A model generated the notes under the pieces. That model made no database searches. It worked only from the letters and a program-made list of their open reading frames with translations, and was not told the origin of the DNA. A stretch of DNA of 64,000 nt from Salinicola corii. Its GTDB lineage: Bacteria > Pseudomonadota > Gammaproteobacteria > Pseudomonadales > Halomonadaceae. Shown here in pieces: positions 18,644 through 28,775 of this stretch. The DNA is taken from positions 62,001 through 126,000 of the forward strand of contig NZ_VTPX01000008.1 in the NCBI RefSeq assembly GCF_008298015.1, given 5' to 3'. Both the position numbers and the translations under genes were made by a program. Every line of letters begins with the position of its first letter. Positions within the stretch are counted from its first letter, which is position 1.

Positions 18644-19312
18644 GTGCGCCAGGCATGGCGTGCAGCGCCGACTAGGCGCTATCCGGTCCGCCGTGGTGGT
18701 TGGCTGGATGACTTGGGGGTGAAAGTCCCCTACGGACCCTGATAGCGGGAACCGTTAGCTGAACAGCAAGGGTGTCCGCCGCGAGGCGGAATCTGAAGGA
18801 AGCTGTAGGCAAACTCCTGGCCCGACGAACAGGAACCGCATATGAGGCAGCCACATCTGGGCGAGAGGGCCATGAAACTCGAAGCCCAATAGCTATCCAG
18901 AAGATGTGGAAGTAGATGCGGCGGGTAGATGGGAGGAAGGCCGCGCGTCTTACCCTGGGAGGCCTGTTCGCCTGCCACTGGCTACCGACACCGTGAGGTA
19001 TCGGGATGGGGGAACAGGAGTCAGCAGAGGCCATAGTAGGCTCTCTAACCTAGAGCTGAAGGGCTGAACCTGTCACGAGTGGATAGTTGACCGCTCTCTA
19101 CTGTGTACGAGCAGAAGCCTCCCCGGAGGGCTCTCGATAACTGTATGGCGGGCCGGAAGCCCAAAGACTGTCGAAGCGCTCAGAGCACATAGGCGGGCGA
19201 ATTCAGCGGAACGAAGCTCAGCCCAATAATGGGAGACAGGAACCGCCGTATACGGAACCGTACGTACGGTGGTGTGAGAGGACGGGGGAGGCGACTCCCC
19301 CTCCTACTCGAT
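18644..19312 (+). mobile_element. ORF-less group IIC intron (669 nt)
   Basis: The element starts GTGCGCCAGGCATGG and ends CCTCCTACTCGAT. From memory this matches the ends of the Oceanobacillus iheyensis group IIC intron, and the interior shares its domain I-III strings (GGGTGTCCGCCGCGAGGCGG, GAATCTGAAGGAAGC, CATATGAGGCAG, TCTTACCCTGGGAGG, AGTCAGCAGAGGCCATAGTA, GAAGGGCTGAAC). Domain V and a domain VI with a bulged A follow. Where a reverse transcriptase/maturase gene normally sits, between about 19071 and 19240, only some 170 nt without a reading frame remain. The ribozyme core looks intact, so splicing would depend on intrinsic activity or a maturase in trans. It lies directly behind the dctP terminator. 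Confidence 0.88.
19241..19312 (+). ncRNA. Group II intron domains V and VI
   Basis: Domain V folds from CCGCCGTATACG and CGTACGTACGGTGG around a GAAC tetraloop. It contains the CGC catalytic triad at 19244-19246 and the two-base AC bulge at 19262-19263. Compared with O. iheyensis as I recall it, the loop-closing pair is swapped G-C for C-G, a compensatory change. Domain VI is a 7-bp GGGGGAG/CTCCCCC stem with a GCGA loop and a likely branch-point A at 19306, six bases before the 3' end. Confidence 0.88.
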
Positions 19313-19377
19313 CCATCTCGTCTAGCTGTCCGTCAGGGGGATCGCCGGGCGCGGCCCCCCTTGGCTACCTAGGTGCT

Positions 19378-20661
19378 CTAATCGCCGCCCAGAGACGGCA
19401 GCAGCAGCGAGATTTCAGGGAAGGCGATCAGGATCAGCGTCGCCAGCAGCAGGATGGCGATGAACGGCGGAGTGCCGCGGATCACGTCGATGTAGGGGCG
19501 CCGGAACACCGCGATGGCGGTGAAGATATCGCAGCCGAAGGGTGGCGTCGCCGAGCCGATCGCCGCCTGCAGGGTGACGATCACGCCGACATGGATCGGA
19601 TCGAGCCCGGCGGACTGCACCAGCGGCTTGAAGATCGGCACCAGGATCAGGATCACCACGATCGGGTCGACGAACATGCAGCCGACGAAGAACGCCGCCG
19701 CGATCAGCGACAGCGCCAGGAACTGATTGTCACCGATCGAGTCGATCAGCGGCCCGAGGATCTGGTTCGGCACCCCGGCGGTCGCCAACGCCTGGGAAAA
19801 GGCGGCGCCGATCGCCACCAGGATGAATACTACCGCGGTGATCAGACCAGTAGAGAGGGCAATGCTGCCGAGATCACGAATCGACACCTGGCGATAGATC
19901 ACCACCTCCAGCAGCAGCGCATAGGCCACCGCCACCGCCGATGCCTCGACCGCGCTGAAGAAGCCACCGTAGATGCCGCCCACCACCAGCAGCGGGAAGC
20001 CCATGGGCAGCACCACCCGCTTCAGCGCCCGGGCACGCTCGCCCCAGCTCGCCCTGGGCTCGGGGTCGATGCCCTTGACTCGCGAATCGATCCAGCAGTA
20101 GATCGCGAACAACACCAGGATCAACAGCCCCGGCAGAATGCCGGCGAGGAACAGATCGCCGATCGAGGTCTGCATCGCCACACCGTAGATGATGAAGCCG
20201 ATACTCGGCGGGATCAGCAGCGCGATGTCGCTGGCGTTGATGATCAGCGCCAGGGTGAAGTCGTCCGAGTAGCCCTTTTTCAACAAGCGCGGACGCATCG
20301 GCCCGCCCATCGCCACCACCGTCGCCTGGGTCGAGCCGGAGACCGCACCGAACAGCGCACAGGAGGCCGCGGTGGTGATCGGCAGCCCGCCGCGCAGATG
20401 CCGGGTAAAGGCATCGACCACGTCGAGCAGGCGATTGGCGGTATGCCCCTTGGTCAGGATATCCGCGGCGAAGATGAACATCGGCACCGCCGCCAGCACC
20501 CAGCTGCCGACCCCGCTGATCATCCAACTGACCGCCTGATCGGGGCCGAAGAACGTCATGCCGGTGAACATCATGTAAAGCGTACCGGCCGCCAGTGGCA
20601 CCATCATGGGAAAACCCAGCAGGAGCAGCACCAGCATGATCAAGCCCAATCCCATCAGCAT
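19378..20661 (-). CDS. dctM: TRAP transporter large permease DctM
   Basis: A 427-aa membrane protein of the ion-transporter superfamily with about 12 helices. Typical segments are LLLLGFPMMVPLAAG near the start, GGLPITTAASCALFGAVSGSTQATV, and NASDIALLIPPSIGFIIYG. It uses a sodium gradient to import the solute delivered by DctP. I chose the ATG at 20661 because AGAAGG lies 9 bp upstream; another ATG at 20670 abuts that site too closely. A 187-bp spacer separates it from dctQ, longer than usual for this pair. Confidence 0.9.
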   Translation of the reverse strand: MLMGLGLIMLVLLLLGFPMMVPLAAGTLYMMFTGMTFFGPDQAVSWMISGVGSWVLAAVPMFIFAADILTKGHTANRLLDVVDAFTRHLRGGLPITTAASCALFGAVSGSTQATVVAMGGPMRPRLLKKGYSDDFTLALIINASDIALLIPPSIGFIIYGVAMQTSIGDLFLAGILPGLLILVLFAIYCWIDSRVKGIDPEPRASWGERARALKRVVLPMGFPLLVVGGIYGGFFSAVEASAVAVAYALLLEVVIYRQVSIRDLGSIALSTGLITAVVFILVAIGAAFSQALATAGVPNQILGPLIDSIGDNQFLALSLIAAAFFVGCMFVDPIVVILILVPIFKPLVQSAGLDPIHVGVIVTLQAAIGSATPPFGCDIFTAIAVFRRPYIDVIRGTPPFIAILLLATLILIAFPEISLLLPSLGGD

Positions 20662-20848
20662 GAGAGGCATCCTTCTTCGATTGTCGTTATTGGCACGGTC
20701 GGTATTGGCGTGGTTTTCATTGGCACCGTCATCGTCGGCGTCGCGGCCCGAACGGGGAGCGGGCGCGAGCCGACGCCAAGCAGCGTGACCTGCGCGATTA
20801 CCGTCGGGGCCGTCAGCCGTCGGATGATGCGGCCCTGCCCTGCCTCCT

Positions 20849-21469
20849 TCACGGCTGGGTGTCGGCGGCGCGTTCGGCGGCCGCGTCGTCCAGCACGCTC
20901 TCGTCGTAGCCCTCGCGCTCGGTGAGCGAGCGCCACACGCCGGGGCTGATCATGTTGCGCAGTGCGGTGAGCACATATTGGATACCCGCCAGTACGAAGC
21001 CGATCGGTAGCGCGGTATAGACCATCCAGAAGGGAATGTGCAGCGCCGCGCTGGTTCGACCGCGATCGTGCAGCGCCACCACATACTCGAAGGACTTGAA
21101 GCAGAAGTAGAACATCAACAGCGCCGTACCCAGCGAGATCACGATCAGCAGCGCCTTGCGCGCGCGACCCTCAAGCTGATCATAGATCGCGGACATGCTG
21201 ATATGGCGGGCGTGACGGGCGGCGTAGCTCACCCCGACGAAGGTGATCACCACGATCAGCATCTCGGTGATCTCGTAGGTGCCGGCGATGCCCTGGCTGA
21301 AAAGCAGGTTGCCAACCACATGGGCACTCATCAGTAGCGCCATGGCCAGAATGCAGCCGCCGATCACCACACGTTCGAGCAGCCCCAGCAGCCGGTCTAA
21401 CGCCAGCAGGGCCCCGAGAAACCCGCCACGAGAGCGCTGCTCGTCACGCTTGGCAGAAGTCGAGTTCAT
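20849..21469 (-). CDS. dctQ: TRAP transporter small permease DctQ
   Basis: A 206-aa protein with four predicted membrane helices and the DctQ pattern: YEITEMLIVVITFVGVSYAARHARHISMSAIYDQL, then a hydrophobic pair ending IPFWMVYTALPIGFVLAGIQY. It bridges DctM and the binding protein. The ATG at 21469 has AAGGA eight bases upstream; the frame extends 14 codons further without support. The C-terminal 30 residues are acidic. It is transcribed with dctM toward the intron and dctP. Confidence 0.88.
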   Translation of the reverse strand: MNSTSAKRDEQRSRGGFLGALLALDRLLGLLERVVIGGCILAMALLMSAHVVGNLLFSQGIAGTYEITEMLIVVITFVGVSYAARHARHISMSAIYDQLEGRARKALLIVISLGTALLMFYFCFKSFEYVVALHDRGRTSAALHIPFWMVYTALPIGFVLAGIQYVLTALRNMISPGVWRSLTEREGYDESVLDDAAAERAADTQP

Positions 21470-21754
21470 GACGTTGTCCTTATTATCAAGGTGAGTCGTT
21501 GTCCGCGCCACCGCCTACGTACCCTCCGCCGGCGCTGCCCTCCGGAGACCTCGCCGGCGCGAGCAGCGCGGCGCCATGACTGCGGGGCGCTTACCCAAGG
21601 TTAGCGCGTAAAGCCCGGTGTCTGCCACGTAACAGCGTGTCTTGCCTCGTTCGGAGAGCGGTTCGGGCTCATCATGTGCACGACCTGCCGCTGGTGCCAA
21701 GCAGTGCTAAGCTTAGGGCTCGTTCAGCGACCCCTGATGGAGCCCCGGCCTACC

Positions 21755-27657: not shown

Positions 27658-27696
27658 TGCGTGCAAATAAAAAAGATTCTCGTTACGCTTGCAATC

Positions 27697-27715
27697 ACAA
27701 ATGAGAATGATTAAC
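27697..27715 (+). promoter_or_regulatory. Fur box at the sRNA promoter
   Basis: ACAAATGAGAATGATTAAC matches the 19-bp Fur consensus at 13 positions by my count. It lies between a possible -35 TTGCAA (27689-27694) and a weak -10 (27712-27717), where bound Fe-Fur would block transcription of the downstream sRNA. Confidence 0.7.
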
Positions 27716-27721
27716 CTTTCT

Positions 27722-27840
27722 CTCGTGGCGTCGCCAAACGCCACTGACCACAGCAGCGAATGTCAGGTTCCTGCCATGGTTATCTCCTCATCAAGCTAGT
27801 CACGGTCCTTAGTGCCGCCCCGCCAGGGGCGGCTTTTTTT
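27722..27840 (+). ncRNA. prrF: PrrF-like iron-responsive small RNA
   Basis: Downstream of the Fur box lies a roughly 119-nt non-coding segment. It begins with a 5' hairpin (GTGGCG/CGCCAC, 27725-27744), continues with a mostly unpaired middle, and ends in a perfect 8-bp terminator stem with seven T. The middle carries TTATCTCCTCATCA, GCTA and TCACGGT in that order (27780-27807), which from memory is the conserved antisense core of Pseudomonas PrrF1/F2. TCTCCTCAT can pair with Shine-Dalgarno regions. The expected role is Fur-relieved repression of iron-using proteins during iron starvation. Only one copy is seen, unlike the tandem pair in P. aeruginosa. The start site is inferred. Confidence 0.75.
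27814..27840 (+). terminator. Rho-independent terminator of the PrrF-like sRNA
   Basis: GCCGCCCC and GGGGCGGC pair perfectly around GCCA, followed by seven T. It abuts the stop codon of the convergent LysR gene. Confidence 0.92.
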
Positions 27841-28775
27841 CATGCTCGCGGCCGCTGTCCGGTATCGCGTCCACTCAAGGCGTCCCGCTGCCAGGGCCCG
27901 CGACCGTGCAATCGCTCCCGGAGCAACTGGGCCAGTGCCTCGACGGCGGGTTGCGACGCGACATCGATCGCCTGGGCGAAGTGCAGTCGGGCGACACATC
28001 GCCGGATCGGCGGCAGACCGTCACTCTCGTCCAGCGCTCGCATCGCCGTGGTGACCCGTTCGCGATCGAGCACACCGATCGCCATTCCAGTCTCGATGGC
28101 CTTCTCCACCGCGTGGATGCTGGTGCTGGTGAAGACGGTTCGCCACGGTCGCTGGATCGAATCGAGCCCCTCGATCGCCAGATGACGATAGGGACACTGC
28201 TCGGGATGGACCGCCAGCGGTACCACCGCCTCCCGGTGAATGGCGCCCTGAATCGGCCCCGCCCATACCGGCGTGGGATGCCATAGCGTTTCGCCGCCCT
28301 CCAGCCCCGTGGCATGGTCGAGCACGATGGCCAGGTCGAGTTGGCGCTTCCTGAGTGCCCGCGCCAGTCGACCGCTGGTATCGGTGTTGACGTCCAGCAG
28401 AATGCCCGGATAGCACGCCATGAACTGCGGAAGGGTGTCATCGAGCAGCTCGCGGGCATAGTCCTCGGGGATTCCCAGTCGAACGCGGCCACTCAGGCGC
28501 TCGCCGCTGAACCGGCTGACCAGAGTGTCGTGAACGCGTAGCAGTTCGCGGGCTTCGCGCAACAGCACTTCACCACTCGGGGTCAGCGATACGCCTCTCG
28601 ACCCACGCTCGAGCAGCCGCACGTCCAGCTCGGTCTCCAACCGTTTCATCTGCATGCTGATGGCGCTCAACGTGCGGTGGCGGATCTCCGCCGTCGCCGC
28701 CAGCGAACCCGTTTGGGCAACCACCTGGAATGTGCGCAGCAGTTCGAGATCGAGCGTGGAGCTGGCTTCAATCAT
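27840..28775 (-). CDS. LysR family transcriptional regulator
   Basis: A 311-aa regulator. The N-terminal winged helix-turn-helix is at about 9-66 (LELLRTFQVVAQTGSLAATAEI, then SAISMQMKRLETELDVRLLER), followed by an effector domain beginning VRLGIPEDYARELL. I chose the ATG at 28775, which puts the HTH at the usual place; the frame stays open far upstream, but that part overlaps the divergent EamA gene. It is divergent from that exporter, with a 91-bp shared region, and is its likely regulator. Confidence 0.88.
   Translation of the reverse strand: MIEASSTLDLELLRTFQVVAQTGSLAATAEIRHRTLSAISMQMKRLETELDVRLLERGSRGVSLTPSGEVLLREARELLRVHDTLVSRFSGERLSGRVRLGIPEDYARELLDDTLPQFMACYPGILLDVNTDTSGRLARALRKRQLDLAIVLDHATGLEGGETLWHPTPVWAGPIQGAIHREAVVPLAVHPEQCPYRHLAIEGLDSIQRPWRTVFTSTSIHAVEKAIETGMAIGVLDRERVTTAMRALDESDGLPPIRRCVARLHFAQAIDVASQPAVEALAQLLRERLHGRGPWQRDALSGRDTGQRPRA

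Follow-up and report, generated by a model that had tools for sequence, protein, structure and literature searches.

Introduction

PrrF small RNAs have been described in Pseudomonas (available text of PMC2851614 and PMC4211561), and ArrF of Azotobacter vinelandii is, in the accessible portion of PMC2851614, an iron-repressed PrrF homologue. Does a halomonad, Salinicola corii, carry a native iron-sparing RNA of this kind? The question is raised by a short interval within a 64-kb stretch of its genome (hereafter, the window), for which inspection of the letters alone had proposed a single-copy, ORF-free, Fur-controlled homologue of PrrF (the original prediction). We came across no account of a PrrF native to halomonads in the mostly open-access literature searched on PrrF, halomonads and iron sRNAs; an earlier description is possible.

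Architecture of the predicted small-RNA gene

Positions 27689-27840 of the window read as a complete small-RNA gene, with a promoter, a Fur-like box, two hairpins, a core and a terminator (Table 1). All the elements that the original prediction had placed in this interval, namely the Fur box, the 5' hairpin, the core segments and a terminator with seven T, are indeed present.

Table 1. Features of the predicted small-RNA locus (window coordinates)
Feature	Position	Strand	Description and basis
Promoter	27689..27717	+	-35 TTGCAA at 27689-27694 and -10 TAACCT at 27712-27717; aligns to the RF00444 promoter region
Fur box (predicted)	27702..27716	+	TGAGAATGATTAACC; between -35 and -10; 3 mismatches to the 7-1-7 consensus
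sRNA (predicted)	27722..27842	+	Span matched by model R1; about 115-120 nt; 5' end approximate
5' hairpin H1	27725..27744	+	GTGGCGT ... ACGCCAC; fold and covariation
Second hairpin H2	27745..27782	+	Conserved AUGUCAGG inside; fold and alignment
Seed segment	27783..27793	+	UCUCCUCAUCA; exposed; invariant in 32/32; predicted pairing with the acnB translation start region
Second core segment	27795..27807	+	GCUAGUCACGGUC; invariant in 32/32; predicted pairing with the sdhC start CCGUGAAUAG
Intrinsic terminator	27814..27840	+	8 G-C pairs, 4-nt loop, seven T

The -35 and -10 hexamers are spaced by 17 bp; a simple sigma-70 scan did not call this TTGCAA/TAACCT pair. The Fur box was scored against TGATAATNATTATCA, which we take to be the 7-1-7 Fur consensus. 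The window holds two such Fur-like sites against 0.34 expected, a number reached in 3 of 100 shuffles, which makes the box a borderline prediction from window statistics alone, and a search with a 19-bp Fur consensus returned no match with three mismatches or fewer. Conservation was more informative than these counts: a Fur-like box with at most three mismatches occurs in 48 of 72 orthologous halomonad promoters, as compared with 14 of 5000 random genome 80-mers and 21 of 2160 shuffled promoters, and ten of the 72 have a weaker box with 5 or 6 mismatches. This promoter set comprises 72 of 77 loci, after leaving out L034, L035 and L044 (variant core) and L317 and L320 (second copy at the edge). 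By the 7-1-7 consensus, the predicted Fur site thus overlaps the promoter, as in a PrrF-like iron-sparing sRNA gene. In three loci of Cobetia and Halotalea type (L331, L332 and L370), a Fur-like palindrome was seen 5' of the -35 hexamer and not between -35 and -10.

The predicted RNA folds with a z-score of -4.88, and 0 of 200 shuffles equalled its stability. Within H1, 5 of 7 pairs show changes on both sides and 96.2% of cells are paired; covariation was counted for this hairpin alone, since H2 has indels. As in PrrF-like iron-sparing sRNAs, the RNA has its own intrinsic terminator, made of a stem at 27814-27833 and the T stretch at 27834-27840. The claim that two core segments stand unpaired proved partly correct. 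It holds for UCUCCUCAUC (27783-27792), with predicted unpaired probabilities of 0.9-1.0. The three bases UUA at the start of the originally proposed segment are, however, mostly paired in the predicted fold, and UAGUCA (27797-27802) reaches just 0.2-0.5. The PrrF core, that is, UCUCCUCAUCA plus UCACGG, is accordingly unpaired in its first segment and partly unpaired in its second. Over 72 loci, the 12 nt ending directly 5' of GCUAG, which contain the seed, have a mean unpaired probability of 0.78, and the 5' part one of 0.31. In the alignment of 32 halomonad transcripts the core UCUCCUCAUCA(A/U)GCUAGUCACGGUC is invariant except for the one A/U position, and it is the most conserved part of the predicted sRNA.

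The interval had further been described as devoid of an ORF. A mechanical ORF (27760-28185) does cross the core and the terminator, with no in-frame stop before the terminator in the window. Among the 32 aligned relatives, the ATG and the frame up to the core are kept in 24 and lost in 8, the ATGTCA start being missing in 4 and the frame shifted in 4 of the other 28. This loss indicates that the ORF is not conserved across the family, and a conserved small ORF through the core was rejected on these counts, albeit not cleanly.

Homology to PrrF below the Rfam cut-off

A permissive scan with the Rfam PrrF model (RF00444) matched the locus over model positions 1-150 of 150 with 54.4 bits and an E-value of 1e-8, the next best family reaching 0.15. 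The covariance-model check set by the original prediction is thereby answered with a full-length match, and the proposed halomonad homologue is borne out by this end-to-end alignment together with the conserved core in relatives. Homology of the locus to PrrF is clear on these comparisons. The score, however, falls short of the curated gathering score of 90 bits, and an Rfam scan of the whole window at the gathering threshold did not report the sRNA, so that standard annotation misses the gene. We therefore regard the sRNA as a homologue outside the curated family and not as a filed member of it. That such a gene would easily be missed had been anticipated correctly: 0 of 201 Halomonadaceae genomes pass the RF00444 cut-off, which excludes homologues in most of the sampled halomonad genomes.

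The predicted RNA shares with PrrF1 and PrrF2 of P. aeruginosa (RF00444) a Fur-box promoter, a 5' hairpin, an exposed core UAUCUCCUCAUCA-GCUA-UCACGG and a terminator, and a length of about 115 nt is given for these RNAs in the available text of PMC2851614, as predicted here. The two differ in the sequences of H1 and H2 and in the core, which reads AAGCUAGUC in S. corii and GGCUAAUC in P. aeruginosa PrrF. Relative to the typical core of family f21, which is by inference the Pseudomonadaceae, two positions differ, and the 54 bits of the S. corii locus contrast with 127-163 bits for the best copy per f21 genome. Moreover, P. aeruginosa carries its two copies as a tandem pair, along with the read-through RNA PrrH, whereas a single copy was found in this genome. 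The likeness to ArrF of A. vinelandii is drawn from its description. RyhB (Enterobacterales), NrrF (Neisseria; likened by description) and BrrF (Burkholderia) work alike, as iron-starvation sRNAs that lower iron-enzyme mRNAs; the accessible part of PMC4211561 states that PrrF is without sequence homology to E. coli RyhB, and that of PMC7377471 that BrrF is without a Fur box directly upstream.

Distribution across Halomonadaceae and beyond

Searched with RF00444, all 18 Salinicola genomes yielded one match each of 45-58 bits, and two of the 18 gave an extra weak match (21-22 bits) in sequences without the core; at the loose threshold of this search, 5 of 14 control genomes also match. The same model at E <=1 found 144 of 201 Halomonadaceae genomes, as compared with 2 of 14 controls. 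We then used a model, R1, built from 32 halomonad transcripts that include this sRNA. At E <=0.01, R1 matched 198 of the 201 genomes (166 of 169 among those not used in building it), which, with the near-invariant core, agrees with the conservation in relatives that the original prediction demanded. G034, G088 and G137 gave no R1 match, and some matches in genus g3 are weak (E 1e-4 to 4e-3). Over 464 kb of the S. corii genome, R1 returned the window copy alone, at 129 bits for a sequence that belongs to its own 32. The claim of a single copy therefore stands for this genome and fails for the family, in which some genomes hold two or more copies; given this and its presence in 198 of 201 genomes, the sRNA is not an isolated case.

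In the order, RF00444 at E <=0.01 matched 62 of 390 genomes (controls, 0 of 14) and gave no match in the other 328. Seventeen of the 62 lie above the cut-off, all of them in f21; 11 belong to Halomonadaceae and 34 to 11 further families, whose weakest matches, near E 0.01, are possibly due to chance. A class-wide draw of 369 genomes, 364 of which lie outside the order by kinship order, returned three matches with RF00444, all within the order among the matches listed. An exact-core scan of named genomes recovered 72 stretches, seven of them with two matches, and all carry the titles of Halomonadaceae genera or of the family except 'Gammaproteobacteria bacterium MFB021'. In another family of the order, one locus (L076, genome G449) displayed five tandem PrrF-like copies. 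Searches of plasmid and phage collections for a mobile origin of the sRNA locus gave no match.

Candidate targets within Salinicola

The start region of acnB has GATGAGG just 5' of its GTG start in 17 of 18 Salinicola genomes, a site that overlaps the Shine-Dalgarno sequence, itself conserved in any case. At the sdhC start, all 18 genomes have CCGTGAATAG, which would pair with the second core segment but for one mismatch; the site lies over start and coding sequence that is itself conserved. Pairing energies were computed with RNAduplex over long stretches, where controls did as well in 14 of 51 cases for acnB, 22 of 51 for sdhC and 35 of 51 for sodB, and shuffled cores in 37, 98 and 178 of 500, respectively. 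These long-range duplexes did not discriminate and were replaced by 14-nt windows. With the latter, the number of control start regions of this genome that pair as well, out of 374 (mechanical ORF starts, some surely spurious), was 3 for msrB, 19 for sdhC, 105 for acnB and 263 for sodB. Pairing energies alone thus modestly favour msrB and sdhC, and do not favour acnB and sodB at all.

Two candidates were set aside. Energies do not support sodB, which pairs better with the reversed core than with the core; the match at its start codon, around AUGGC, lacks specificity. The second, msrB, is also acted on by RyhB in E. coli and is a strong candidate in this genome; the full site, GATGAGGAGA, a long match to the seed, is nevertheless found in just 6 of 18 Salinicola genomes (L203 and relatives, L187-L204), which makes msrB species-specific at best. 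The anti-seed pattern occurs 286 times genome-wide against 114 for the reversed pattern, but this count was left out of the argument, since purine-rich codons and Shine-Dalgarno sequences may account for the excess. Of the targets originally suggested, sodB is therefore not upheld. Energies are weak for acnB as well, but its site changes together with the seed, as detailed below, and this, along with the sdhC site in all 18 genomes, leaves acnB and sdhC as the best-supported targets on comparative evidence.

Co-change of the seed and its predicted acnB site

In the loci examined from two halomonad genera, g10 and g20, the seed is rewritten to CUCUCAUUG, CCUCAUUG and variants in place of CUCAUCAAG, while the second core segment is unchanged. 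The acnB start of g10 carries an AG insertion in all five genomes examined, resulting in AUGAGAGGG, which is complementary to the new seed. This insertion is found in 5 of 14 genomes with a CAUU seed against 0 of 30 with a CAUC seed; similarly, acnB reads AATGAG in 7 of the 14 g10/g20 genomes, whose seed has CAUU, against 0 of the 30 with CAUC.

We compared pairing of each core with the acnB of its own genome against shuffled combinations, using shuffles that ignore relatedness. For 26 non-Salinicola genomes, the mean helix was 8.65 with the own genome and 7.56 (sd 0.24) when shuffled, with 0 of 5000 shuffles as good; by duplex energy, 1 of 5000 did as well. These 26 were the acnB starts used from 30 genomes, leaving out G031 (unmatched at the threshold), G026 and G061 (partial matches) and G048 (start unplaceable). 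With all 44 genomes, and shuffles of the same kind, 0 of 5000 were as good either for helix length or for energy. Cores of g10 fit g10 acnB best by both measures. Those of g20 favour their own acnB by helix length (8.0 versus 6.9 for other genera), but not by energy, where their own acnB yields -13.2, other genera -13.6 and g10 acnB, the best, -16.2; this energy result counts against the co-change reading. There are further exceptions, in that the site is lost in G023, G007 and G018 have one mismatch, and G160 and G200 combine a g10-type seed with an acnB lacking the insertion. The acnB tree, partly unresolved, puts the G-to-A change at only some three points; G027 combines the old seed with GAT despite its position inside a clade with the change.

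Despite the g20 energies, the co-change is still the strongest evidence here for a direct pairing of the sRNA with acnB, as judged by comparison of genomes. It is a naturally occurring example of joint change in an sRNA seed and a target site, and renders the rewiring of sRNA regulons directly testable.

By eye, 18 of 19 g10/g20 loci (L317-L321, L323-L330, L334 and L373-L376) have UGAUGAG, mostly as UUGAUGAG, in the loop of the 5' hairpin, the exception being L322 with GGATGAG. The motif is complementary to the older seed, resembles the acnB site and is absent from all 32 aligned halomonad transcripts; it is possible that it acts as an internal target mimic. A broader scenario, which we put forward tentatively and with some doubt, would make PrrF an old, order-wide iron-sparing RNA that went unseen because the model is tuned to Pseudomonas, with a seed that evolves stepwise with acnB, as followed in the two genera, and a loop UUGAUGAG that could keep the seed closed off until displaced by a competing mRNA.

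Proposed function and alternative explanations

We consider the locus, with a probability of roughly 0.85, to be a Fur-repressed gene for a PrrF-homologous iron-sparing sRNA that would pair with acnB and probably with sdhC. We infer its transcription, Fur binding, Hfq dependence and repressive action as follows. When iron is plentiful, iron-loaded Fur would occupy its site inside the promoter, between the two hexamers, and block transcription. Once iron runs short, the cell would make an RNA of about 118 nt, its ends presumably protected by the hairpins and the terminator, and the exposed core UCUCCUCAUCAAGCUAGUCACGGUC would pair, probably with Hfq, to the ribosome-binding regions of iron-enzyme mRNAs. 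Pairing with acnB would proceed through CCUCAUC and that with sdhC probably through GCUAGUCACGG; the resulting block of translation would spare iron.

A Fur-controlled sRNA of PrrF descent might nonetheless have another main job in halomonads, be it with different targets or through titration of a protein; acnB and sdhC would then be minor targets or not targets at all. Such a role would explain why single-genome pairing energies are unremarkable for acnB and sodB and why msrB pairs better, though with a full site in a third of the Salinicola genomes. Nevertheless, acnB sites change along with the seed, and no part of the RNA is as conserved as the core, which fits these mRNAs; both points make a different main job unlikely. 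Much less probable is that the stretch belongs to an adjacent gene, as its leader or 3' UTR, and is not a free-standing sRNA. The locus is flanked by an AEC-type transporter gene (PF03547) upstream, past whose end it begins after 32 bp, and by a LysR-type regulator gene downstream, and the AEC cluster adjoins the sRNA in 23 of 37 compared sequences from several genera (mechanical ORFs, at most two per side). This neighbour was, however, not found by the same count in the compared Kushneria, Larsenimonas, Cobetia, Halotalea, Carnimonas and Phytohalomonas sequences; the locus has a conserved promoter, Fur-like box and terminator of its own, and tandem copies, for instance at L336 and L370, each come with promoter and terminator.

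Convergence of an unrelated RNA on a PrrF-like seed, as with RyhB-class RNAs elsewhere, is the least probable of the alternatives. C/U-rich anti-Shine-Dalgarno seeds could, we reason, arise readily, and the available portion of PMC7377471 describes BrrF of Burkholderia as functionally analogous yet unlike the known Fur-regulated sRNAs in sequence. Yet here the promoter, hairpins, 25-nt core and terminator are similar and stand in the same order, and the matches of the class-wide draw are, among those listed, confined to one order, with graded scores and intermediate sequences. Common descent with PrrF and an iron-sparing function remain the preferred reading of the locus.

Some halomonads are industrial chassis, and halomonads gain with this sRNA a probable iron-sparing regulator of their own. 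For gene knock-down, Halomonas bluephagenesis has been equipped with P. aeruginosa PrrF1-2 and its cognate Hfq (accessible parts of PMC12164125 and PMC13414033), and a similarly built native RNA might disturb this tool or take its place. In the available text of a cheese review that names Halomonas (PMC12096840), RyhB-like systems of cheese-ripening microbes are considered understudied.

Elsewhere in the window, where no reverse-transcriptase gene was seen by eye among ORFs of at least 200 aa at 18700-21500, three successive Rfam group II intron matches lie within about 540 bases of the + strand (18775-19312).
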